The position numbers were made by a program, and so were the translations under genes. Source: Sulfurovum sp. (GTDB lineage Bacteria > Campylobacterota > Campylobacteria > Campylobacterales > Sulfurovaceae). From it: a stretch of 64,000 nucleotides of DNA. The notes under the pieces are model-generated. The model did not search any database and was not told the origin of the DNA. It saw nothing but the letters and a program-made list of their open reading frames with translations. Shown one piece after another: positions 7,364 to 64,000 of the stretch (its first letter is position 1; every line of letters starts with the position of its first letter). The DNA lies in contig JAIZOF010000001.1 of the NCBI GenBank assembly GCA_020525365.1, forward strand, positions 526,381 through 590,380, in the 5' to 3' direction.

Positions 7364-8899
7364 TTACTTTGTATCAAATTTGTAGTCAAGCATTGCCCAT
7401 ATTTTAGTTGTTTTGGTAATTTTAGGGTCAAAAAATTCATCATTTTTAGTAAATAAAGAAGCCTTTACCATACCAGAAAGACCTTTGATGACAGGAATTT
7501 TGTTTTTATAAATCATATCTATTTCCGTACCATAATTTTCACCTGCCATATTGGAGGAGAAGGTGTGGTAAATAACTTTTGCAAGACCAAACTCGTTAGA
7601 TTTGTATCCAATCATTCCATTCATATCTACAAGACCATCATCTGGTGTAGCCAAAAATATATCAGCCCATCCATTATGTGCATGCAGTGTTGCCAATGGT
7701 GTTTTAAAAGGAGCAGACATTCCTTCTTTATCTTCTTCAAGTACTTCATGCTGTACACCAATAAGAAAACCATGATTTATATTAAGATTAGCTTGAATAT
7801 TGTGATAATTTGTATTTATTACATCAGTAGTAATCTTATCAGGGGTGGTAAGGGTTGGATTAGTCTGATGTGCATATTCTAAGCGGTAGTTTAGTTTTAT
7901 AGGACCTTCATTGATATTCCCTGTTACGGCAATACCGTAAGTATCTGTAATATCTTTAATGAGATAATCATAAGCTGTTAGTGTCAATGTTGGAGTAAGG
8001 CGGTATGCTGCATGAAGTATAACAGATGCGGTACTAAAACCTGATTTTACTGGTTTGACACTCTCTTTGTCAAAAATAGTATTAACCTTCCCTACATATG
8101 CAGCCAAAAGATTAAGATTTTTAATAGAGTTATCAATGACTGCTACTGCATCATAGGTTTGTGGCATCTGTCTCCAGTTAACTGTACCAACAAATCTTTG
8201 GTTGTCAATATTGACACCTTGACGACCTGCTCTAATTAATGTTTTACCAAATGCGTAGTCAATATATGCCTGTGTTATACGAGTTTGAGCAGGGTCAGCT
8301 ACCACTTGATAGAACTGCATTTCATCCCTTGTACTAGTGGAGAGATCCCAATAGTTTCCTAAACCAGAAACATTGGTTCCTTCGAAATAGGTTGATAGAC
8401 CTTTTATTTGAGGTAAATCAATCTGGACACCAAGTTGTAATCTATTAGTAGATGCACCAGCCTTCTCTTTTCCATTATTGGGCACATCAACAGATTCATA
8501 TCTTGGACGAATCTCACCTTTTGTAGTGAGCACAAACATAACATCACCATTTTCTGTTACTTTTTTAATTGTTTTTTGGCTAATGACTGGAACCATTCTC
8601 TCGTGAGACATTGGATTGTCTGTTGATCTCTTGACCATTCTCTCGTGAGACATTGGATTGTCTGTTGATCTCTTGACCATTCTCTCGTGAGACATTGGAT
8701 TGTCTGTTGATCTCTTGACCATTCTCTCGTGAGAGACTGGATTACCTGTTGATCTCTTAACCATTTTCTTGTGAACTACTAGGTTATTTGCTGGTTCTTT
8801 GACCGCTCCTTCATGAATTACTGTAATCACTGGGTCAATATCTCCACCTGCTATCAGTGCAACTAACATTGCTACCAAAAGTAAAAGTATTTTTTTCAT
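7364..8899 (-). CDS. Outer-membrane porin with an N-terminal 14-residue tandem repeat
   Basis: A 511-residue exported protein. A signal peptide (about residues 1-18, MKKILLLLVAMLVALIAGG) is followed by about 70 residues of tandem repeats (residues 32-101) and then by a long beta-strand-rich region typical of Opr-type porins of Campylobacterota: alternating aromatic/polar strands and phrases such as IRAGRQGVN and LTAYDYL. The predicted role is a trimeric or monomeric diffusion channel in the outer membrane; the substrate is unknown. The repeat module lies between export signal and barrel, where it would face the periplasm or form a plug-like extension. Monocistronic, with a candidate terminator downstream. 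The barrel assignment is confident and the repeat function unknown. Confidence 0.8.
   Translation of the reverse strand: MKKILLLLVAMLVALIAGGDIDPVITVIHEGAVKEPANNLVVHKKMVKRSTGNPVSHERMVKRSTDNPMSHERMVKRSTDNPMSHERMVKRSTDNPMSHERMVPVISQKTIKKVTENGDVMFVLTTKGEIRPRYESVDVPNNGKEKAGASTNRLQLGVQIDLPQIKGLSTYFEGTNVSGLGNYWDLSTSTRDEMQFYQVVADPAQTRITQAYIDYAFGKTLIRAGRQGVNIDNQRFVGTVNWRQMPQTYDAVAVIDNSIKNLNLLAAYVGKVNTIFDKESVKPVKSGFSTASVILHAAYRLTPTLTLTAYDYLIKDITDTYGIAVTGNINEGPIKLNYRLEYAHQTNPTLTTPDKITTDVINTNYHNIQANLNINHGFLIGVQHEVLEEDKEGMSAPFKTPLATLHAHNGWADIFLATPDDGLVDMNGMIGYKSNEFGLAKVIYHTFSSNMAGENYGTEIDMIYKNKIPVIKGLSGMVKASLFTKNDEFFDPKITKTTKIWAMLDYKFDTK
8593..8802 (-). repeat. 42-bp in-frame tandem repeat in the porin gene
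   Basis: Five consecutive 42-bp units. Units at 8593-8634, 8635-8676 and 8677-8718 look identical; 8719-8760 differs at several positions and 8761-8802 is clearly degenerate, with a still weaker sixth unit beyond. Each encodes 14 residues of the form MVKRSTDNPMSHER. The gradient from degenerate (signal-peptide side) to identical (barrel side) suggests recent expansion at one edge. Confidence 0.95.
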
Positions 8900-16526: not shown

Positions 16527-17246
16527 GTGAAAAAACATCGCTATAAAATCTCCTTTTTGGTGACAGCACTTATCTATGTTGGATTTTTTTTACTCCTGTT
16601 TGATATAGATAAAAAACATCTTATACTTTTTCCCTCTTCTACAAAAGATACTATTAGCCTCTCCTTTTCTCAATTTGTTTCTAAAACAACATTACCATCT
16701 ACCAATATCGCTCCAATTCAGAAAGAGCAGTTGGTTGAGGAAAAACCCCAACCCAAACCAGAAAAAAAAGAGCAGTTGGTTGAGGAAAAACTCCAACCCA
16801 AACCAGAAAAAATAGAAAAAAAAGAGTTACTTGTGACAAAGAAGGATCTTAGGGATAAAGCTTTTATTAAGAAAAAGATACCTAGGTCTCACAAAAAGAC
16901 TATTAAAAAAAGTAAGCCCTCTAGAAAAAGACAGCTTAGTGGTGGAGGATCACCCCACTATAGCAGTAGAAGTCGTAATGATTTCCTTGCACACATTCGA
17001 GCAAAGATAGAACATGCAAAGTCCTACCCACGTATTGCATATCGGCGCGGAATACAAGGAATGGTTAAAGTACGTTTTACTATCTTACCTAATGGTCAAG
17101 TGGGACACATTATGCTCTCTGGCTCAAAAGTCTTCTATGCATCAGTACGTAAAGCAGTTAAAGGTGCTTTTCCTGTTGATGCTAAGAAAGCACCACTTGA
17201 ATTACCAACTACTGTTAATCTATTATTACGCTATAGACTCCATTAG
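16527..17246 (+). CDS. tonB: Energy transducer TonB
   Basis: Spans the periplasm and passes proton-motive energy from ExbBD to outer-membrane receptors. It begins with GTG. One N-terminal helix (about 8-26) is followed by a Lys/Glu/Pro-rich linker (about 65-140) and a C-terminal TonB domain (about 150-239, with the YPRIAYRRGIQGMVKVRF segment). The linker holds a direct duplication of a 15-residue unit. Placed directly before a TonB-dependent receptor, so a dedicated transducer is likely. Confidence 0.92.
   Translation: MKKHRYKISFLVTALIYVGFFLLLFDIDKKHLILFPSSTKDTISLSFSQFVSKTTLPSTNIAPIQKEQLVEEKPQPKPEKKEQLVEEKLQPKPEKIEKKELLVTKKDLRDKAFIKKKIPRSHKKTIKKSKPSRKRQLSGGGSPHYSSRSRNDFLAHIRAKIEHAKSYPRIAYRRGIQGMVKVRFTILPNGQVGHIMLSGSKVFYASVRKAVKGAFPVDAKKAPLELPTTVNLLLRYRLH
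16722..16811 (+). repeat. Two-copy 45-bp tandem repeat in the tonB linker
   Basis: Units at 16722-16766 and 16767-16811 are nearly identical (one visible C-to-T difference) and encode KEQLVEEKPQPKPEK and KEQLVEEKLQPKPEK. The repeat lengthens the periplasm-spanning linker by 15 residues. Confidence 0.9.
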
Positions 17247-37432: not shown

Positions 37433-37640
37433 GTTAAGCCCTATTTCCCTACCGTCATATTTTATGCTAATGTCTGTCACCATGGCTTCTATTTAATAAA
37501 TGGTGATTTAGGCAAGATGCTCTGGAAAATGTGTATGTTTCCTTTTTGGGATCTTGACAGATTTTTCAGTCGTTTTCCATAGATTGCATGAAAGAATATA
37601 ACAAAAATATTACCACTATATACCTTAATACATAACGCGC

Positions 37641-37669
37641 TTGACAAAGTTGTTTGAAAGTGTTATTAT
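37641..37669 (+). promoter_or_regulatory. Sigma-70-type promoter of ssrA
   Basis: TTGACA at 37641-37646 and TATTAT at 37664-37669 are separated by exactly 17 bases. The -10 box ends 15 bases before the predicted 5' end of tmRNA. This is the clearest housekeeping promoter in the window. Confidence 0.8.
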
Positions 37670-37684
37670 CCTGCTCTACACTAT

Positions 37685-38045
37685 GGGGGTGACTTGGTTT
37701 CGACTGGAGTAGTCGGGCTATGTGCATGTCGGACTGGGCAATTCCGTTACGCGGCCCAATGCGAATAAACGCAAACAATACAGATTATCGTCCAGCACGC
37801 AGTAACGTAAGTTACAACCGCTTATGCGGAGGACTGCCCTGCCGGCAGGTGTCGCAACGGACTTTTGGGTATCATTCTGATGACTATGCACCAAGGAAGC
37901 TATGTCTTGGGTGTGAGAATTTTAGCTGGTCTAGCAAGTTTTGGGTGTAGTACAAAGCCAGTTGAGGATATAACAACTAGACTAAGCATGTAGGAGTCAT
38001 GGTTCTGGCTGTTTTAGGACGAGGGGTTCAATTCCCTCACCTCCA
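37685..38045 (+). ncRNA. ssrA: Transfer-messenger RNA (tmRNA), tag frame apparently shifted
   Basis: Rescues stalled ribosomes. The tRNA-like ends are intact: GGGGGTG at the 5' end pairs with CACCTCC near the 3' end, the GACTTGGTTTCGAC opening and the T-arm GGGGTTCAATTCCCT are present, and A73 follows; CCA is not encoded. The tag begins at 37771 with codons for ANNTDYRPA, close to the Helicobacter tag VNNTDYAPAYAKAA. After the PA codons no stop follows in frame until 37948, giving a 59-residue tag. Adding two bases (TA, making a TAC codon) after 37797 would restore RPAYAV-T-stop. The lesion may be real decay or a sequence error. Confidence 0.9.
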
Positions 38046-38480
38046 CAAAACACTAGTATATCTCAAGAAAAATCATATATCAACTTTTATTATTTACTAT
38101 GGAGTATTAATAAAATTTGACACTAACGCTTTTTTATTTTCGTGTAGGGTGGGACATCACTACAGGGGAAGAACTTATGATACCACTGCTTTGCTGTAAG
38201 GAATTAGTGATAGTCAGAAAGATTAAAGTTGTCATTGTCACTAGACCTCTGGTTTCCTCATGGATTTAGACCATGTCCTCCACTATACGAAAGGCGGTTT
38301 TAGCTCAGAAGTCATCGGGGTATGGTTAGCCCTGAGTAGGCACTAGAGTATCTCAGGCTTTGGGCTCAGTATTAGATCAGAGGAAAGAGCTTGTACAGTG
38401 GTGGGGTGGTGGCTGGATGAGCAAACTAAAGATGTATCTTTATAAGATTACAGTTTAATTCTTGTCTTAATATTCTCTTT
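38046..38480. other. Stretch without recognisable genes after ssrA
   Basis: No frame with a credible start or family resemblance was found on either strand. Fragments of coding-like sequence of 40 or so codons can be read on the plus strand (for example around 38150-38260) but are interrupted by stops. This is the near edge of the decayed region. Confidence 0.5.
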
Positions 38481-38489
38481 AGGAATATC

Positions 38490-40260
38490 TAAAAATAGTT
38501 GATTCCTTCTAGTGCATCTATCATTGTTTCAAATTTGAGAATGGTAATTGCATTTAATTTTTTCATTATAGATATAAAACATTCACCTTTTTATGTAGTA
38601 TATGTTTCATTACCTGACGCGTATCCTCCAACTCTTGTTTTGTTTCATTATTTAATGTTAATGGTAAGATATGACCAAATACAGACTTCTTTAATTCTTT
38701 TCAAAATAGTCTAATCTTATGTATTTAATTCTGTTGATTCAGCGAATTTTTCACCTGTTGCAAATCACTACCTTTTAATTCTGTAAGTACAATATCTTTA
38801 ATATCACTTTCACTCTTCACGTAAAAATACAAATATCAGGTCAGTATTTTTATCTTTATCTTTAGATCCAAAATTTTATTATTATATCACTATAGCATAG
38901 TTGTAATCATAAATCTTTCATCAAATAACCATAATTATTATTTTTATATAACTTATCACTATCATTACTTGCATTTTCGTTTGCATAATCTTATTTAACA
39001 GATTATGGTTTCATTTGATTTTTAGTTAACATTTTCGAGATCTGCTTTTAATATCATTAATAATTTTTTTCTCAAGTCAGAAAATATATTCAGCCAACTC
39101 TGTGATTGCTGACATAAGCCTTTCTTCATAATCAGGTTTATTTTATTTTTATATTTCAATATACTCTTTGTCATATTAAATCTCTCTTTTGCCTCTTTAA
39201 TAATCTCTGCACTATTAGCTTTATTAGTACTTTTTTAATATAAGATGTAGATATGGAGCTGATCTTATAAACTTTTAGATTGATTTTCTTTAACTTTTGC
39301 ATCTATGTCGATACCATACTTTTTACAAACACTATCTATTGTTACAAAAGTTTCTATTAATTATTCTCCCAATCAAGTCCATCACTGAAGATTAATATTT
39401 TTATCTTTGATAATAAAGCTATTTGACTATCATCTACATGTTTATCAAAGTATTTAGAACTGACAAAATACAATATTCCTTTATCTTTTGCCGTGATAAG
39501 TTTCAATCTAATGTATCTGCCTTTTACTTCTTTTATCTGCACAATGGCCTTTAATTGAAGAGCACTTTTGCTTATGAAACAGTAAATTTTCGTCATTTCT
39601 CCCACTACCTTGATAGTAAATATTTCCATCCTCAAAACCCTTACCATGTTCTTTTTGCTTCTATTGTCGAGACTAATTTATTGTCAATATATGATCTAAT
39701 CATCACATTTTGTATCATCTACCATGAATTTAAAGGTTTGAGAAAATGCCCAATAATTTCTTTTCTTCCCCTTTAAATCAATATCGTCCTCTTTTACATT
39801 GATAAAATCTACTTTGTTTTTTGAATAAGTGGTTCATTAGGTAATCGTATAGGTTTTAATTATCTCTCTCTATCTATATCGAAATCAAATTCAATGTTTC
39901 CTGTTATTGTAGCTTTAGATTAACTTTCTCACAGTTGTCAAATAGGTAAATCTCTATACCTTTTTGCATCCCAAAGTTTCTTTGTAATCGACAGATAATG
40001 ATTAAAAAGAATCTATATTTTCATTGGTAAACCCATCTCCATTATATAGTACTAAATTTTTTTACTTTTCTTGTTTCTTTTTATAAGATCAACAGGTAAA
40101 AGTTTCAAATATATTTCAATTTCTGTGCATTTGCTTATACTAATGAAAGTTACTTAGCTACTGTAATACTGTTAACTTAATTTTAGATAATCTTTATATT
40201 TGTTTTGTTGTGACTAACTCCTTCCCCTAATCAAATTCATCTTGATTTCTCAAAATTACT
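38490..40260 (-). pseudogene. Decayed GHKL (HSP90/histidine-kinase-like) ATPase gene
   Basis: Read right to left, shifting frames recover pieces in the right order. First come an N-box-like region (around 40150-40190, ending in TEIEIYL), then YNGDGFTNENIDSF and DYKETLGCK (around 39985-40050), which match the ATP-lid region of GHKL proteins, then FDNCEKVNL and FDFDIDRE. A 96-codon open segment lies at 39357-39647, followed by KKYGIDIDAKVKENQ and, near 38640-38820, ESDIKDIVLTELKGSDLQQ. Many stops and frameshifts mean no functional product. The original was perhaps 550-600 residues. The specific subfamily is unknown; some such ATPases are island- or defence-associated, but nothing here proves that. 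Confidence 0.5.
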
Positions 40261-40339
40261 GAAATTTATTAAATATGAGTCCTCTATTCACCTTAAATTT
40301 AAATAAATTAGACCAATTTAGCACAAATCCGCACCCCAA

Positions 40340-40690
40340 AAAAGAAGGCCAAAAATAGAAAACTGAATTTAATGCAACGACAGCATACCTCACCTCCTGC
40401 CAGCTGTTCCTCTACTTGCTCTGGGATTCTTTGAGACCAGATCGGTTTATATCTCTCTTGGCGGTGGCTATCGAGGTTTTGGGTATGAGATGTATTTTCT
40501 GGTACTTAGATCCGCCCTCAAAGACCATCAACTCCAGCATCAAGTGGTTGTGAGTACTTGGTTTGACAGTGTTTAATGAATACGCTCACTATCCTGAAAT
40601 TGACTTTCTGTAGCTCTGTTTATCATGTCAGTATCTTGAGACTGTCCACTCTGTTGCTCTCTAAATTTTGTTATACACAAACTTTTGCTA
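40340..40690. other. Unassigned coding-like remnant
   Basis: A plus-strand frame around 40430-40563 reads FETRSVYISLGGGYRGFGYE and continues to WFDSV before a stop. It is coding-like but short, without a start or a recognised family. Probably another gene fragment. Confidence 0.3.
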
Positions 40691-41780
40691 CAAGTAAAAA
40701 CTGTAGTTTATTTCATTCATTAGGATTAAAGCAAGTAAGATACTTCATCATTCTTATTAACAGCATAACTTTAGGAGGCTGTCAAGTAGCTTATTACAAA
40801 GGGTACAAGTGTACCACAAAACAATCACAATCCAATTAGCCCCATGATTGTATCAGTCTAGGTTGAAAACGAGCATAGATGTTGGTGGGTAAAAAACAAA
40901 TTCTGGACGCATTGCGATACAAAAATCACATGATGATGGCATCAACGTGCCAGCTATTTTTAAAGAACGTGGGTTTGGTCATGTCAGAATACGCCTATCA
41001 GAAAATATTTTAGATAACTCCTGCCGATATTACCGGCAAAGCACTTATGCAGGAGTTGATTGATGTGGTTGATGATTGTGTTGAAGCTGGTTTAATCCCT
41101 ATTATTGCCTATCAGGCAAGATTTTAAACTAAATCCAGCGATGATAATACTCTATCTGATGTTATCGAATGGTGGGCTACAGTAGCTGAACGCTTTAAAA
41201 CTATCCTTACGTTGTAGCTTATGACCTCATTATTGAAACGACTGAAGAGATTAAAAATCATAACGACAGGCTCAGTTTGCTATATCAGAGGCAACCCAAA
41301 AGAATACATCAGAATTGATACAGAAGAATTGTAATTGTGCACCCAATAATATCTCAGAATTGCTTTACAAGTTAAAGACCTAATTGTACCACAACCAGCG
41401 TTATGATGGTTGAATAGCATTTTTATGCAGCAGGACCGTAAAGAACCAACCCCAAAAAACTTTGGACAATCGGTACAGAGGCAGAAAAAGAGACATTTCA
41501 AACATCATAACAGCAAAAATGGTCTGATGACAGTACAATACCGGTTTGGTAGGAGCATGGAGAGCCAGCCGTTACACCAAAAATAGTACTGAAACTCTTT
41601 TATGATGGTGCTCACGGTGGTGAGTAGATACAATGTTACAGAACATAGAGTTGAAATAGCAGACCACATCAGCAAGCACTTCTAATCTCAGAACATTCCA
41701 TATGCAGTTAACTCAGATACCAAATTTTTCAACAGAGACACCAATAGGTGGTAATGCATCCAATGAACAATGTTGGACGC
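40690..41780 (+). pseudogene. Decayed glycoside hydrolase family 5 (cellulase-like) gene
   Basis: Frame-shifting translation gives a co-linear series: a lipoprotein-like N terminus with LGGC (around 40765-40795), HDDGINVPAIFKERGFGHVR (around 40933-40992), DVVDDCVEAGLIPIIAYQA (around 41062-41119), SDVIEWWATVAERFK, YVVAYDLIIETTEEIKN with a candidate acid/base glutamate, WHFYAAGP-like sequence near 41420, KLWTIGTEAEKETFQTS, and YAVNSD near 41700. This order is that of GH5 endoglucanases. At least five frame changes or stops are visible, so it is non-functional. Confidence 0.6.
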
Positions 41781-41789
41781 AATGCTGCA

Positions 41790-42850
41790 ACGTAATCACA
41801 AGCCTATCTCTGCTGCTCGTATGTTTCCCTCTTGTGGAACTTATCATTTACTTCTTTGTCTACACACTATATACACACAAAATCAGTATATTCAAGAAAA
41901 ACTAGAAAGGATAAGATGAAACACCATATCTATTTTTGGTGAAACAGTAGAGGTATGATATACCGTACTTAATACGAACATGAGCAAGAGCAGGTAGAGG
42001 ATCCTGCACCTGCTACATTTTCATTTTTAAATGCCTATTTGACCCATGATTTTTTCTTTACAAAAAATATTTATTACATTTTTATATTGGAATTTTTTAT
42101 GCTGGATATAAACCCAAAAGTATGCACCTACGCTTATATTGGGTAAGGTTTTTTGTGAAAATCAGATTCCTGCCAAGTATGTAGGTGCCCCACAAAAAGA
42201 TTTGCATAGCTCATTAGGTTTGTACTTTCTGTTAATGATATTTTTATTATTGTGTTTTGAGATTATGACCCACCTATTAAGGTATTACGCCTTACATGCA
42301 TAGCATTACTTTTAATTAAACAGCTTTTGGCATCTGTCTAGGGTGGTGTCTCATTTACCATAAGGTATATTACAAAGTCCAAGTATTGTCTGGCAATGCA
42401 TGTGAAATACAAAAGCATGACATACAACAGATATCAAAAAGTCAATGGATAATTATTGTGTTATTTTTGATAGGGTAGCCACTATATGGCTTTTATTAGA
42501 TAAAATTGACCATAACCACTCAAAATACTATGAAATTAATGCTCTGCTGAAATGCAGGAGTAGTATGTTAAGGTAAAAGTATGGTTGATTGCATCAGCCA
42601 TCTAACCTTGCCTCTATACCTCTTACGCCTTCTTAATTTAAGCCTGGTTGGGTGGTTGTGGGTGAATTAGGATGACAATAGTTTTATCTCCCTATGATGC
42701 CAGAGAGAACAACAGCCTCCCCACTCCTTTATTTTGTAGCTTACGGCTAAATGCCCAGTAGTGGTCATGTACACCTTGACATAAAAATGTTAAAACAGTA
42801 GAAATATCATCAGGCTATGAGGCGTCTTTACTTTTTCTATGTTTCATTTA
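41790..42850. other. Gene-poor stretch with unreadable remnants
   Basis: No credible gene on either strand. Hydrophobic coding-like pieces occur on the plus strand around 42030-42480 (for example near 42220-42300), interrupted by many stops. Nothing assignable. Confidence 0.5.
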
Positions 42851-43323
42851 AATCATCAATCTTGGTAACTTCTACCATACATCCTACTTATGTGCAGCAA
42901 TTTCGAAACTGAACCTCTTAAAATCAGTGAATTGCGGGTTTGAATGGAAGGAATATCATAGTTCCAGCAGGCCTTATCTTCGATGGATACATTGGCATGA
43001 TCAAATGACAATTTATCATTATTTAAAATATTTCTTAAACAAGGCGCTTGAATGGTCACAGATATTAATTACTCTGATTTGCTTGGCGTTGTTAAGCTCT
43101 TTTGTGCCATGCTGGTTGTAGAGTCCATTGTAAATATCATAGATGGCTGCTCTTCATCCATTGTACAGAACAATGGCCACATCCAGAGCTCTTGGCCGAT
43201 GTCTGGAGCTTTCAGAGGTAGTGGCTCAATTGCCTTTTTATTTTATCTGGTATTCCTGATGTTCACCAGCAAACATGAGAGAGCAGTTGCTAGAAGTATA
43301 AATGTTATAGTTTGTTTTTTCAT
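42850..43323 (-). pseudogene. Decayed gene for an exported protein
   Basis: On the minus strand AAGGAT is followed by ATG at 43323 and a good signal peptide (MKKQTITFILLATALSCLLV). An in-frame stop comes soon after. Coding-like sequence resumes and includes an open stretch at 42856-43059. No family recognised. Confidence 0.4.
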
Positions 43324-44695: not shown

Positions 44696-44734
44696 GTTTT
44701 TCTTATTTCCCTATCAATATAAATAAGTTAAAAA

Positions 44735-45650
44735 GATAGCTTGGCATACTTTGGCATCATCTCATCTTTAGCATGTGTGCCTCTGGGTCCGGCGGACTCA
44801 ATAGCGTGTGCGCCAGCATAATGGTTCCACCTGGTGTTTCTTAACATGCGCTCATACCTACCATGATTCTCCAGCAATATCAATACGTCCTATTCCATGT
44901 TTTTTTTACTTAAAATTGTATTGCAAGTGTTTCAAGAATAGTTGCTGGACTCAGCTCTTTACCATTAATTGCCTAGGATCACCATGTTTAGTAACGGTAA
45001 TATACTCTGGTTTTATCTGTTGCCTCTTCGGAAACAGACCAAAGCCACATATCCTCTTCAAGGTTCATTGTATGGATTCTCTAGCCCTCTCACCCTCATG
45101 AGATGTGCAGAAGATTTGCATCATTTGAATAAGGCTTTGGTTTACCGCGTAGTATCAATACCATGGTTTTAGCATACTCAAGTAACTTAGTGCGAGAATT
45201 AAGATCCCACTCTCTCATGGTGCAATAACTGCTATGTCTGGGTCAAGTTACAGAATTATCCAAGTTCAAAGCTGTGCCTGATCGTTCCCTTTTCCTGTTG
45301 CCCCAAGAGCAGCATCTGCACCTGTCTGTATTTTAATTTCAATCTGCTTCTTGGCATGAGTGGGCGTGCGATAGAGGTGCCAAGCAGGTACTCTCCTTCA
45401 TGGTGCGTTGGCTCAGAAACATTGGAGAAAAACAAAGTCTTTAACAAACTCTTCCTGTGGATGAGACAAGGCTGTTCTTAGAAACTGTACCCATGTAAGT
45501 GCTTTCTGGCGTGCAGGCTCTACCTCTTCGCTGCTTATTAGGGTCTGCAGTGTACCACTTGCATGAGCTGTTGTCCTGTAGCCACTTGAGAATAATACTG
45601 GTATCAAGCCCACCAAGGGCAGCCAATACCATGTCTCTCTTTGCCATCAT
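44735..45650 (-). pseudogene. Decayed partial copy of argG (inverted)
   Basis: Reading the minus strand from ATG at 45650 gives MMAKRD, then [15 protein letters not shown], and further on [10 protein letters not shown], all matching the intact argG at 52624. Lineup continues with many small insertions and deletions to 44735, corresponding to about base 53580. The last 290 or so bases of argG are absent. The pyrophosphatase motif SGGLDTS has become LGGLDTS and the frame is repeatedly lost, so no enzyme can be made. Confidence 0.9.
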
Positions 45651-45789
45651 TACAGTATTAAAATAATATTGTTGCGATTTTATCACAATCTTGGTTAATG
45701 CTTACACGCCCTCAAGAGAGTCTAGCAATATATCATATCACCAAAGCGGGTTTTAATCTTTTTTGTGTAAATCAAAGGATACTTTATTT

Positions 45790-46065
45790 TAAAGGGATTT
45801 TGTGCAGGAATAAGGAGCAGTCATTTTTCAGCACTACCTCTTTGCAAGATTTTTCCTCAACGAGTACACAGCTGTGTGCCTCTGCCTCGTCAAAACGGTA
45901 CAGACATCAAATTAAAAGGTCATTCCTGTATGGTATGAGTGAGTGGCTGTGATTCATCATTATGGCAATGATCTTAAAGGCCATTGCGGTATTACCCAAA
46001 TTCTTGAGTGGCGAACCAAACTGGTGGCCGAGGTTGTTCCGCATGAAAAACTTCCTACCATTAAG
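45790..46065 (+). pseudogene. Decayed 5' fragment of the pgbA-like gene (inverted copy)
   Basis: The plus strand here matches the minus-strand 5' part of the gene at 51775-52464. LPLCKIFPQ-like sequence is followed by HHYGNDLK-type bases (GATTCATCATTATGGCAATG) and ends at CTTCCTACCATTAAG (46051-46065), equal to bases 52186-52200 reversed. The start codon region is scrambled. It is one continuous inverted block with the argG copy. Confidence 0.85.
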
Positions 46066-51775: not shown

Positions 51776-52464
51776 TAAAATTGCTCCATAGTCTTATAAT
51801 AGTCTTTAGAGGTACTGTTAGAAAACCATCCACTTTGGATCTCATCAAAATGCATAAAAAATGGAAACTGTGTTTTTTGAGACGTATTGTGGAAAGCCTT
51901 TTTGCCAACAATTTTTCCAGAGATGGGGTCAAGCAGTACAGCACTATTTTTCTTGATAATATAAATAAGCCCAACCTGATATTGTTTGGCAAAAAGTGCA
52001 AGATTGGCTTTGGTAGGATAGCCCTCTCCTAACTCTGAAAGAAATGCAGCAAAGAGATCAGGATGAATCCATTTTTTAGATACTGCCTTGGTGATTTTTG
52101 TATAGGTATTTGCATTAGGGGCTAAAAGTAGTATATTGTTATAAAGGTATCCACCAATGATTTCATCACCTTTTGAGATAGATGTCTTAATGGTAGGAAG
52201 TTTTTCATGGTGAATAATCTCTTTGGCTACCAGTTTACCTATGCCACTCGAAGAGACTTGGGTAATATACCCAGTAATTGCCTTAAGATCATTGCCATAA
52301 TGATGAATCACAATACCACTCATGCCATTAATAGGGAATGGCCTATTTAATTTTATATCTGTACCATTTGATAAGACAGAGGCAACAGTTGTATGTACTG
52401 TTGGAGGAAAAAATCTTGCAAAAAGAGGTAGTGCCAAAAGCATGATCAAAATGATCTTTTGCAT
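51775..52464 (-). CDS. Exported protein with PgbA N-terminal-like domain
   Basis: A 229-residue protein with signal peptide (about 1-16, ending LFAR) and a region resembling the N-terminal domain of H. pylori plasminogen-binding protein PgbA. It lacks the Lys-rich C terminus that binds plasminogen in H. pylori, so that activity is not implied. Overlaps glcD by one base. Its 5' half, plus the shared upstream region, is duplicated and decayed at 45.8-46.07 kb. Confidence 0.7.
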   Translation of the reverse strand: MQKIILIMLLALPLFARFFPPTVHTTVASVLSNGTDIKLNRPFPINGMSGIVIHHYGNDLKAITGYITQVSSSGIGKLVAKEIIHHEKLPTIKTSISKGDEIIGGYLYNNILLLAPNANTYTKITKAVSKKWIHPDLFAAFLSELGEGYPTKANLALFAKQYQVGLIYIIKKNSAVLLDPISGKIVGKKAFHNTSQKTQFPFFMHFDEIQSGWFSNSTSKDYYKTMEQF

Positions 52465-53580
52465 AGCAATCCTTTAAAATAAAGTATCTTTTGGATTATA
52501 CAGCCAAAAGATTAAAAAAACCCGCTTTGCGATATAGATATATTATAGGCTTCTTGGGGGGCATGTGAGCATTAACCAAGATTGTGATAAAATCGCAAAA
52601 TATTATTTTAATACAAGGCTGCAATGATGGCAAAGAGAGAGATTAAAAAAGTGGTATTGGCTTATTCTGGTGGGCTTGATACCAGTATTATTCTCAAGTG
52701 GCTACAGGATGAATATGGTTGTGAAGTGGTAACTTTTACTGCAGATCTTGGACAAGGCGAAGAGGTAGAGCCTGCACGCCAGAAAGCACTTGATATGGGT
52801 ATTAAGCCTAAGAATATCTTTATTCTTGATCTAAGAGAAGAGTTTGTTAAAGACTTTGTTTTTCCAATGTTTCGAGCCAACGCAATCTATGAAGGAGAGT
52901 ACCTGCTTGGCACCTCTATCGCACGCCCACTTATTGCCAAGAAGCAGATTGAAATTGCACATGAGACAGGTGCAGATGCTGTTTCTCATGGGGCAACAGG
53001 AAAAGGGAACGATCAGGTACGTTTTGAACTTGGATACCTTGCACTTGACCCAGACATAGCAGTTATTGCACCATGGAGAGAGTGGGATCTTAATTCTCGC
53101 ACTAAGTTACTTGAGTATGCTAAAAACCATGGTATTGATATTGACGGCAAGGGTAAACCAAAGCCTTATTCAATGGATGCAAATCTTCTGCACATCTCTT
53201 ATGAGGGTGAGTGGCTAGAGAATCCATACAATGAACCTGAAGAGGATATGTGGCTTTGGTCTGTTTCCCCCGAAGAGGCACCAGATAAACCAGAGTATAT
53301 TACCGTTACTTACAAACATGGTGATCCTGTAGCAATTAATGGTAAAGAGCTGAGTCCAGCAACTATTCTTGAAACACTTAATACACTTGGTAAAAAACAT
53401 GGAATAGGACGTATTGATATTGTTGAGAACCGTATGGTAGGCATGAAAGCACGCGGATGTTACGAAACACCAGGTGGAACCATTATGCTTAAGGCACATC
53501 GTGCTATTGAGTCCATTACGCTTGATCGTGAAGAGGCACATGCTAAAGATGAGATGATGCCAAAGTATGCCAAGCTTATC
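52186..53580. repeat. Source segment of the inverted duplication
   Basis: This block, covering the 5' half of the pgbA-like gene, the divergent promoter region and about three quarters of argG, has a diverged inverted copy at 44735-46065. The copy is about 1331 bp against about 1395 bp here, so it has net deletions. Separation is about 6 kb. Confidence 0.88.
52486..52512 (-). promoter_or_regulatory. Hairpin with TATAAT in its loop upstream of the pgbA-like gene
   Basis: ATCTTTTGG (52486-52494) and CCAAAAGAT (52504-52512) form a perfect 9-bp inverted repeat. On the minus strand its loop contains TATAAT about 32-37 bases before the pgbA-like start, so it may be the -10 region with an operator-like repeat. 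The decayed copy has lost the symmetry. Function inferred. Confidence 0.35.
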
Positions 53581-53874
53581 TATAATGGTTTGTGGTGGTC
53601 TCCTGAGCGTAAAATGATGCAAGCAGCCATTGATGCAACACAGGAGCAAGTTAATGGAGAAGTGCGTCTTAAGCTCTATAAAGGAAATGTGGTAATTGTT
53701 GGTCGCAAATCTGAGAATTCACTCTATTCTGAAGAGCACTCTACTTTTGAGGCTGATGATGTTTATAACCAAAAGGATGCTGAAGGGTTCATTCGGCTCA
53801 ATGCACTACGGTTTATTATTGAAGGAAAAAAACAGCCTGAGCGTATTGCTTCATTGGTTAAAAAAATATCATAA
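52624..53874 (+). CDS. argG: Argininosuccinate synthase
   Basis: Condenses citrulline and aspartate in arginine synthesis. The 416-residue protein is intact, with the N-type pyrophosphatase motif YSGGLDTSI at about 14-22, the [10 protein letters not shown] segment, [13 protein letters not shown] and the citrulline-binding [14 protein letters not shown]. Two ATGs (52624 and 52627) follow AAGG. Divergent from the pgbA-like gene. It is the live paralogue of the decayed copy at 44.7-45.65 kb. Confidence 0.97.
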
Positions 53875-59954: not shown

Positions 59955-61499
59955 ATGTTTTTTAAAAAAAATAAACCACAAGAACCACAATCTGACATAA
60001 AGAATATTGCTACAATAAATGCATATACTGATCAGAACTATATCTATGCAGAAGGTACTTTTAGACCTTTAAAAAAATTAACCTTCAATAAAACAAACCT
60101 TATCATTTCATATTTAAGTAATAAAGATTTTATCACATCCCTTGCACGGGTTAGCAAGAGTGTACCAGATGAAGATTTAGATGATGTACTTGAAATTAAG
60201 GTATTTGAGGAACTTGGGCTTAGTCTAGAAGGTGATTATGTTGTCACTTCATATGAGACAAAAGATACTGAAAAAGAGAGGGCTTTTCATTTTTTTGTCT
60301 CTGAAACAGAAAAGCTTGAAAGTCTCTATTTTCCTATCAAGAAAGAGACAAAATATATTGATTTAATTACCCCTGCACCACTGCTCTTTAGGGCACTCTA
60401 TCAAAAAGAGATATTGGATTGTGAATCGTGCACACACTGCTTTGTCTATTTGACTCGTAATGATGCATTCGTGACACTCTATGCCAATGGTGAGTATATC
60501 TATTCAAAGTCTATAGATTTTTCTTTGGAGCAAATTTATGATAAATTTTGCGAAATTGAAGGTGAGCAGGTAGACAAGAACCACTTTTTTTCAATATTGA
60601 AGAGAGAGGGTTTGGCAACAGAAGATACCATATATCAACAAAATTTTATAAAAATATTTGAAGAGATGTTTGTCATTATTAATGATATTATTATCTACAC
60701 TAAGCGGGCGTTTGAGCTTGATTCTATTGACTGTGTTTATATTGGAAGTGCTAAAGGACCAATTGTTGGCTTGAGTGAACATGGTCACAACTGCTTGAGA
60801 CTTCCTTCTGAAGATCTTAATTTTGACTATCAGGTCAATAGTGATGAACAATATGTTGATCAGCTACAATCTCTGATGCTACTAACGGCAATGATACATC
60901 TAGAGGGCGAGCATAAGGTTTTAAAGATACCTATGTATGCTAGGCTTCCAGCATTTACTAATCGTGCAAGTGGTCAGTTTATTATTGCCACATCTGCAGC
61001 AGTACTCATTGGGCTTTCTTGGCCACTCTATAATCTTATGGCCACTTATATCAATGATGTTAAAACTGATGTACTCATAAACCAAAATAAAATATTGCAA
61101 AAGCAAGTTTCTAAGTATAAAAATATATTAAATCAAAAGAGAGCAGAGCTAGAAAAACTCGACAAAAAGTTGAATTATTTATCGACATTTTATAATAAAA
61201 AAACAAAGACACTTAAAGCAATTTATCATAAAAAAGTAGACTATCGTCTTAAGTCTGATTCCTTTTATGTATTGGCAAATGAATTACATAAATTTGGACT
61301 TTACGTTGATAAGATAAGAACCAAAGAGAATATCGTAAAACTCTTTTTATCTGGTTCAAATGATAGAAAACTAACAGAGTTAATTAAATATATCTCAGAA
61401 ATACATGTTAATGACATTAAAGGGATTAGTATTAAATTAATTGAGAGAGACCCTAGGAGTGGGTACTATCGAGGCATATTGAAGATGGAGTTTAAATGA
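59955..61499 (+). CDS. MSHA-type pilus assembly protein, PilM-PilN-like (MshI region)
   Basis: A 514-residue protein. The N-terminal about 330 residues look like a PilM/actin-like domain. A single transmembrane helix (about 340-358, FIIATSAAVLIGLSWPLYNL) is followed by a long coiled coil (about 370-420) and a PilN-like ferredoxin domain. This is the inner-membrane platform component that connects the assembly ATPase to the periplasmic alignment complex. It overlaps the next gene by four bases. Assigned by layout and context rather than by strong motifs. Confidence 0.6.
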   Translation: MFFKKNKPQEPQSDIKNIATINAYTDQNYIYAEGTFRPLKKLTFNKTNLIISYLSNKDFITSLARVSKSVPDEDLDDVLEIKVFEELGLSLEGDYVVTSYETKDTEKERAFHFFVSETEKLESLYFPIKKETKYIDLITPAPLLFRALYQKEILDCESCTHCFVYLTRNDAFVTLYANGEYIYSKSIDFSLEQIYDKFCEIEGEQVDKNHFFSILKREGLATEDTIYQQNFIKIFEEMFVIINDIIIYTKRAFELDSIDCVYIGSAKGPIVGLSEHGHNCLRLPSEDLNFDYQVNSDEQYVDQLQSLMLLTAMIHLEGEHKVLKIPMYARLPAFTNRASGQFIIATSAAVLIGLSWPLYNLMATYINDVKTDVLINQNKILQKQVSKYKNILNQKRAELEKLDKKLNYLSTFYNKKTKTLKAIYHKKVDYRLKSDSFYVLANELHKFGLYVDKIRTKENIVKLFLSGSNDRKLTELIKYISEIHVNDIKGISIKLIERDPRSGYYRGILKMEFK

Positions 61500-62149
61500 A
61501 AATTTTAGAAGATAAGCTAGAAGCCATGGATACCTATTTTTCGTCTAAGAAAGAGAGTGAAAAATGGGTAATTATCTTGGGGGTTGCCATCATTATTGTC
61601 TATCTTGTATATAATCAGATTTTCCCCTACACGGAACAACTTTATAAAAATAGCAAAATAGCAAAAAAAACAGTACAAAAAAGTATTCAGGATAATACAG
61701 CATACCTCAATAGTATTACCATTAACGGTGATCGTGATTTTTATGTTAAAAAATATATTGTAGATATTGCTAAAAAGAAAAAATATATAGTCAAAAAAGA
61801 GCAAGACCTTAAATCTATCGATATTAACCTTCAAAAATTATCAGATATGCTGTTTAACCAAAAAAGTTGGTCAATTTTCTTAAATTCTATTACCAAAAAG
61901 GCTGAAATACGTAATATAAATTTGAAATATATCCACAACCAGTATGTAGACAATAATGGAAGTTTTGGGCATGTATTGGAGGTGAGCATAGGGTGTGAAG
62001 GCAGTTATAAAAATATTGTAATGTTTCTAAATGATATGGAACAAAATGTACTTGTAACCGATGTGTATGGTACTGATATTAGGATGGATATCAATTCATC
62101 TTTGGTGATTGCTGATATCAATATTTCAGTATGGGGGATTAATCATTAA
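61496..62149 (+). CDS. MshJ/PilO-like pilus assembly protein
   Basis: 217 residues with one N-terminal transmembrane helix (about 25-42, WVIILGVAIIIVYLVYNQIF), a coiled coil and a C-terminal domain with GHVLEVSIGCEGSYKNIVMF, typical of PilO/MshJ. It would pair with the preceding PilN-like protein in the periplasm. ATGA overlap upstream and one-base overlap downstream indicate one operon. Confidence 0.65.
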   Translation: MKILEDKLEAMDTYFSSKKESEKWVIILGVAIIIVYLVYNQIFPYTEQLYKNSKIAKKTVQKSIQDNTAYLNSITINGDRDFYVKKYIVDIAKKKKYIVKKEQDLKSIDINLQKLSDMLFNQKSWSIFLNSITKKAEIRNINLKYIHNQYVDNNGSFGHVLEVSIGCEGSYKNIVMFLNDMEQNVLVTDVYGTDIRMDINSSLVIADINISVWGINH

Positions 62150-62565
62150 TGAAAAAACTAATTATGACTATACTTGGGAGTGTAGGTTTGCTTCATGCTG
62201 AATTGAGTATTAAGCAAATAGAGCAGATGGTCGAACAAATACATTTAAAACGTAAAGGTCGTGAAGGTATTGATATTGAGACCTTGAAGCACACAAAAGA
62301 ACCGTTTATGTTTGGTAAAAATAGGCAAGACTCAATGACTATCAATTCATCTAAAAAAGAAGAATCCAGAATAGTACTGCATGCAATTATGTCTAACAGG
62401 GCATACATTAATGATGGGTGGAAAAAGGTTGATGATAAAGTACTTGAATATACAGTAAAGTATATTGGAAAACATGGTGCTGTACTAAGAAATGGTGACT
62501 CAATCAAGAAGTTATTTTTTCGCAAACCGAAAGATAATTTTATCACGATAAAAGAGAGAAAATAG
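62149..62565 (+). CDS. MshK/PilP-like periplasmic protein
   Basis: 138 residues with signal peptide (about 1-17, ending LLHA) and a small C-terminal beta domain (VLHAIMSNRAYINDGWKKVDD...NGDSIKKLFF) resembling the MshK/PilP domain that contacts the secretin. The pattern of position between a PilO-like gene and a secretin gene is the strongest evidence. Confidence 0.6.
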   Translation: MKKLIMTILGSVGLLHAELSIKQIEQMVEQIHLKRKGREGIDIETLKHTKEPFMFGKNRQDSMTINSSKKEESRIVLHAIMSNRAYINDGWKKVDDKVLEYTVKYIGKHGAVLRNGDSIKKLFFRKPKDNFITIKERK

Positions 62566-62566
62566 A

Positions 62567-64000
62567 ATGAAAAATATAAAATTTAAAGAAATAAGATTTG
62601 CCATAATATAATATTTTTATATTAGGTTTTATGAATGTGGCATCAGCTAGCAGTTGCTCCAATAAACTTTTTTCAGTCACTATTGATAGTCAACTAACAA
62701 TAGAAGATGTGATTGAAAATTTGGCAGATACTTGTGCATTAACGGTTATCATCAAAGATGAAGCAACACAACAACGTATGAAAAAAAATTTTTATTACGT
62801 CAAACTAAAAAATAGTACATTAAAAGGATTTCTCAATACAGTTTTAGAGGACAATGATCTTCACTATACACTAATTGGAAACAAGCTGAAAATCTCATAC
62901 TTAATTACAAGAACATTTAAGATGCACTATATTTCTGGTCAGAGGATAGGAAAGAGTACGGCAAATGTAACAATTGCTAATTCTCAAAATTCTAGTTCAT
63001 CACAGGGAGGTTCTGGTGGAAAAGGTGGTGGCAGCAAAGATGGTGAGAATCTTTCTAAAACAGGAATTACTATTGAGAGCAATGACAAGTTTCAATTTTG
63101 GAAAACGGTTGAGAAGGAGGTGCAGAGAGTCTTGGTGGGGGCAGCTGATGAAAGCATGCACTATACCCGCAGCGGGGATGAATGGAAAGGTTCGGATGGT
63201 AAGGTATGGGAGTACAATCCACTTGCACCTATTGTTAATCCTGAAGCAGGTATGATCACTGTTACAGGTACGCAGAGACAAATTGATAGGGTTGCAAAAT
63301 ATATTCATACACTCAGTAAACAGATTAAGCAACAGGTTCTTATTGATGTTAGGATTCTTTCTGTAATACTTGATGATAGTCGTAAAACCGGTATTGACTG
63401 GTCACAATTGCACTCATTGCAGAATTTTACAGCAAACTCTCTGGGTATGGTACAAAACAATATTGCATCCTATGCATTTGATGCAGTTCAAGGAATTACT
63501 GATACCGAATTTGTGGCAAATACTGGGACAAATATTAATCCATTTGGGGAAAGTATCACTCCACCTAATGCAGGTGTTATAAGTATTACCGGACATGCTC
63601 AAGTACAAGAAGTAATAAAGTTTCTTGGTACACAAGGAGATGTAAAATCTATCTCTAGCCCAAGAGTCATGACCTTAAACAATCAGCCAGCAATGATAAG
63701 TGTGGGACGAGAATTATTTTACAAGATTCAATCTTCTAGTACTTGGTACACAAGGAGATGTAAAATCTATCTCTAGCCCAAGAGTCATGACCTTAAACAA
63801 TCAGCCAGCAATGATAAGTGTGGGACGAGAATTATTTTACAAGATTCAATCTTCTAGTACGGCATCAGGAAGTGGTGGTGCAGTTTCAGCACAAGGCGAG
63901 CTTGTAGATTCTGTTTTTGCAGGTATCCTGCTTGATATTACTCCAGAAATTGATACAGATGGGATGATTACTTTAAAAATTAACCCCTCCATATCTGAAA
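62567..64000 (+). pseudogene. MshL-type outer-membrane secretin gene, disrupted (runs off window)
   Basis: The main frame (62607-63776) encodes the periplasmic N domains and the start of the secretin domain (QVLIDVRILSVILDD..., SPRVMTLNNQPAMISVG) that forms the pilus exit channel. Two lesions are seen. A signal-peptide-like start, MKNIKFKEIRFAII at 62567 (one base after the TAG of the preceding gene), is one base out of frame with IFILGFMNVASA at 62613. A 118-bp perfect tandem duplication then shifts the frame so that the product ends at 63776, after which the original frame resumes and stays open to the window end. From the ATG at 62631 alone there is no signal peptide. Confidence 0.8.
63624..63859 (+). 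repeat. 118-bp perfect tandem duplication in the secretin gene
   Basis: 63624-63741 and 63742-63859 are identical as read. Each begins CTTGGTACACAAGG and ends TCTTCTAGTA. Because 118 is not a multiple of three, the duplication shifts the reading frame. Removing one copy restores a continuous secretin reading frame. Confidence 0.97.

Follow-up and report, generated by a model that had tools for sequence, protein, structure and literature searches.

The pilus operon and the 118-bp doubling in its secretin gene

The window, by which we mean the whole 64,000-nucleotide stretch of DNA analysed here (G000:C1:526381-590380), belongs to the assembly G000, which comprises 1,466,071 bp in two contigs, has a completeness of 99.86% and an estimated contamination of 0.09%, and has Sulfurovum MAGs and isolates as its closest named relatives. 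The last part of the window carries a pilus operon on the forward strand: a PilM/N-like gene (59955-61499), a PilO-like gene (61496-62149) and a PilP-like gene (62149-62565), whose roles are assigned from their position, are accompanied by an mshL-like secretin gene, and MshM-, MshN-, MshE- and MshG-like genes lie downstream of it. All operon genes other than mshL are intact, and those named here are of full length when compared with their relatives. Both halves of the broken mshL gene, which are split by a frameshift, have the MSHA-type pilus secretin MshL (TIGR02519) as their best match, and the gene lies in an MSHA-type operon of msh-like order together with the MshM-, MshE- and MshG-like genes. 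The difference from MshL is that each half alone (125.3 and 182.6 bits) stays below the curated 250.2-bit cut-off. A second secretin gene, a 678-codon frame with pilin-like genes nearby, lies apparently intact at G000:C1:885018-885512.

The mshL-like gene contains a 118-bp unit twice, head to tail, at 63624-63741 and 63742-63859 on the forward strand. TRF reports 63624-63860 with a period of 118, 2.0 copies, 100% matches and zero indels, and a comparison by script found the two 118-mers identical. The identical run is in fact 119 bp long, since the C at 63860 also matches, which leaves a microhomology of 1 bp at the junction and no wider homology; an exact match of this length within 64 kb is not attributable to chance. 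Neither a run of N nor error-laden filler is present at the 63741/63742 junction. A dispersed repeat or a mobile element was rejected as the origin of the doubling, as a 501-bp query spanning it matches only its own site in the genome. Thus the perfect tandem duplication described by the sequence-only reading was borne out, and so was its claim that the doubling shifts the frame while the secretin frame stays intact beyond it. Because 118 leaves a remainder of one when divided by three, the second copy is offset by one base and the upstream frame, whose first ATG is at 62631, runs for 381 codons and terminates at 63776 (62631-63776; best NCBIfam match to TIGR02519 at residues 201-371; no signal peptide). 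Within the second copy the secretin frame opens again, and its open part (63700-64000; TIGR02519 at residues 14-186; PF00263) extends past the end of the window to L018:2698.

The same reading overlooked a second frame break in the deposited gene, which may be real or itself an assembly error. The true start and the signal peptide lie at 62567-62630, in a frame that differs by a single base, near 62610, from that of the mature protein: read from the ATG at 62567, the signal-peptide frame meets a stop near 62609. In relatives the N-terminal signal peptide is in frame. The stretch 62563-62845 occurs once more in the assembly, at G000:C1:1304049-1304330, as a 283-bp piece that is 99.6% identical with one gap; it differs by one base, and the signal peptide is in frame there. 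Next to the piece, a neighbouring 2.1-kb segment is repeated in inverted and error-laden form (G000:C1:1301956-1304330; L049:7957-10331). An origin of the 283-bp piece as a short contig left by a k-mer bubble was considered but is not supported, since its sole difference is not central in the piece. With the signal-peptide frame also broken, the deposited gene could not be turned on by a change of repeat copy number on its own, and removing or adding one 118-bp unit does not by itself restore it. Therefore, the earlier statement that the duplication shuts off the secretin gene is not supported for the deposited sequence, in which the duplication is not the sole lesion.

The protein is encoded in 56 of 60 related genomes. 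Among same-genus relatives, 30 have a frame of essentially full length (500-553 aa); in each of these the unit is present once and the frame is uninterrupted, and no same-genus relative has a second match to the residues that the unit encodes. The secretin frame keeps the codon-position bias that is typical of purifying selection; the ratio of changes at positions 1 and 2 to those at position 3 is 0.57-0.61 in comparisons with G000 and 0.21-0.51 among the relatives.

Doublings and fold-back copies across the assembly

We surveyed 1.16 Mb (79%) of the 1.466-Mb assembly, read in stretches, and took 360 kb of G016, a relative assembled in one contig, as the control. Perfect abutting doublings of 126 bp were found in nrdA (G000:C1:84871-85122; L052:9871-10122) and, 1.2 kb from it, at the 3' end of purB (G000:C1:86066-86317; L052:11066-11317), and a doubling of 127 bp plus one base lies at G000:C1:1190023-1190277. 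Between the two copies of a 124-bp repeat (G000:C1:1209638-1210247) lies an inverted, gap-rich duplicate, 90% identical, of sequence found about 3 kb away, and judging from this arrangement the repeat looks like a pair of overlapping contig ends that were bridged by raw filler rather than merged. Doublings of a near-constant, k-like length (124, 126, 126 and 127 bp) thus recur in unrelated genes of this assembly. Further perfect doublings measure 279, 321, 438 and 1334 bp, several of them within regions rich in other repeats. The control contained no perfect doubling with a period of at least 100 bp.

Other repeats of G000 were recorded alongside these. A 2.5-kb segment is doubled head to tail with 93% identity and 82 gaps (L122:12593-17547; G000:C1:217593-222547), and a tRNA gene is perfectly duplicated in tandem with a period of 102 bp (L051:9501-9687; G000:C1:9501-9687), which may be genuine. 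The window also holds shorter tandem repeats with units of 42 bp (8592-8774) and 45 bp (16722-16816) and lengths divisible by three.

The doubling in nrdA serves as a control. It repeats 42 residues around the LLSKFGGGIGW motif, and the NrdA matches of relatives split at the doubling point and lack the second unit. This gene encodes the only ribonucleotide reductase detected in G000: PF02867 identified no other large subunit, and no enzyme of the NRDD family (PF13597) was found in the assembly. An assembly error is a far more likely explanation than a living cell with such a doubling in its sole ribonucleotide reductase. Since the nrdA doubling is implausible in vivo, exact doublings of similar size in this assembly should not be taken at face value.

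Large inverted copies are also present in several stretches. Long palindromes with one error-laden arm span 11.5 kb at G000:C1:700001-711509 (L059:1-11509) and lie at G000:C1:968921-976046 (L098:8921-16046), and more large inverted copies are found in L049, L052, L054 and L094. The window has one of its own: 44734-46065, on the reverse strand, is an error-laden copy of the argG region at 52186-53581, from which it differs by 93 indel events and 74 substitutions. Indel events exceed substitutions in the other copies as well (102 vs 60 in L049, 273 vs 210 in L059 and 231 vs 175 in L098), and only one of the two arms retains open frames. Decaying pseudogenes gain far more substitutions than indels. 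Given the excess of indels and the frames confined to one arm, the inverted copies have the appearance of unpolished long-read sequence that includes fold-back reads, and the palindromes are probably fold-back long reads that were built into the assembly. The number of inverted copies would also suggest a genome-wide duplication biology in a decaying symbiont; this was rejected, as indels outnumber substitutions at all copy sizes and frames remain only in one arm. No gap-rich inverted copy was present in the 360 kb of G016. Runs of N occur in G000, some of which may be masking. Elsewhere in the window, 37484-43051 is a stretch of 5.5 kb without an ORF of at least 100 aa, in which Rfam finds only a tmRNA (37685-38048).

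Origin of the mshL doubling

The sequence-only reading had left three options, namely a recent event, an assembly artefact or a reversible switch. Of these, the second is best supported by the condition of the remaining assembly, and the mshL doubling is most likely not a real genomic feature. We put at roughly 0.75 the probability that it is an unmerged contig-end overlap: two contigs sharing a true overlap of about 118 bp within mshL would have been set end to end without merging, so that the overlap is shown twice. The assembly looks as if it was produced from short-read contigs that were scaffolded, with gaps closed by long reads that were left unpolished and were in many cases fold-back reads. 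The contigs would probably come from a de Bruijn assembler with k of about 127, a value suggested, on general knowledge of assemblers, by the lengths of 124-127 bp. Neither a source paper nor a description of the G000 assembly method was found in the literature examined (PMC7174374, PMC8722025, PMC9526052). The doubling itself, faults of its class elsewhere in the assembly and the error-laden fold-back copies are seen directly in the sequence; the assembler type, the k value and a shared cause of the mshL doubling and the other faults are inferred. The living organism would probably have an mshL gene with one copy of the unit, as its relatives do.

The artefact is favoured by doublings of a similar class, the 124-bp case, nrdA, the fold-back copies, the runs of N, the clean control and the intact rest of the operon. 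Against it stand the doublings of 279, 321, 438 and 1334 bp, which do not fit any single overlap length, and the length of the mshL unit itself, which at 118 rather than 126-127 requires the assumption that 8-9 bases were trimmed. This length and the junction without filler are the reasons why the probability was set no higher. The case is strong but circumstantial.

A rival reading is that the duplication is real and very recent, that it arose by illegitimate recombination at the 1-bp microhomology and that, by inactivating mshL, it marks a step of gene loss. The identity of the copies, the broken frame and the additional break in the signal peptide agree with such an event, as do the small size of G000 (1.47 Mb, compared with 1.8-2.6 Mb in many relatives) at nearly full completeness and the somewhat raised proportion of changes at positions 1 and 2. 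However, every other gene of the operon is intact, the secretin frame retains the codon-position bias of purifying selection, and the assembly contains many false-looking doublings of similar size. We regard a real, recent duplication as plausible, though much less likely than the artefact. A seam between two co-existing strains that differ in mshL, pieces of which were joined, could account for the 283-bp piece with its one-base difference next to an error-laden fold-back segment. Against such a mixture, the two 118-bp copies show no allelic difference and the estimated contamination is 0.09%; we consider it very improbable.

A reversible on/off switch, in which the second copy is gained and lost and pilus export becomes phase-variable, would be compatible with the intact rest of the operon, and a perfect 118-bp direct repeat can indeed be lost via recombination or slippage. 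The way back is the difficulty: apart from the 1 bp, no repeat flanks the single-copy state, and frequent return of the second copy would not be expected. Moreover, the break in the signal-peptide frame would leave the gene silent with one copy or two, copy number does not vary among the relatives, and similar doublings lie at the end of purB and in nrdA, the sole gene of its kind and one for which an off state is implausible. The proposal of phase-variable pilus export thus found no support, and we consider such a switch very improbable. Equally improbable is a real duplication that is polymorphic among the cells of the population, in which case one-copy cells with the signal peptide in frame would build the pilus and the others could not.

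If the doubling is an unmerged overlap, a near-complete species-level reference (99.86%, two contigs) contains numerous false duplications as well as fold-back copies laden with errors, and claims of gene loss, pseudogenes or phase variation based on G000 would be wrong. If the duplication were real, it would be a loss-of-function mutation of an ordinary kind, affecting a pilus gene.

Comparison with known systems

The mshL doubling shares with the repeat-mediated phase variation of surface structures a frame-shifting tandem repeat inside a gene for such a structure. Known phase-variation loci are usually built from several copies of a short, readily slipping unit, whereas here one long unit is present in two copies and is absent as a repeat from relatives. 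Chimeric long reads of the fold-back type (template plus complement), used as gap filler, resemble the inverted, adjacent and gap-rich copies of G000, one of which lies in the window; the 118-bp doubling is direct and free of errors and hence is not a fold-back copy. The mshL doubling also resembles the duplication of k-mer overlaps at unmerged contig ends of de Bruijn assemblies: the repeat is perfect and head to tail, has exactly two copies, is accompanied by repeats of near-k length elsewhere in the assembly and is independent of gene function. It differs from this pattern in its length of 118 and in a junction with neither gap nor filler.
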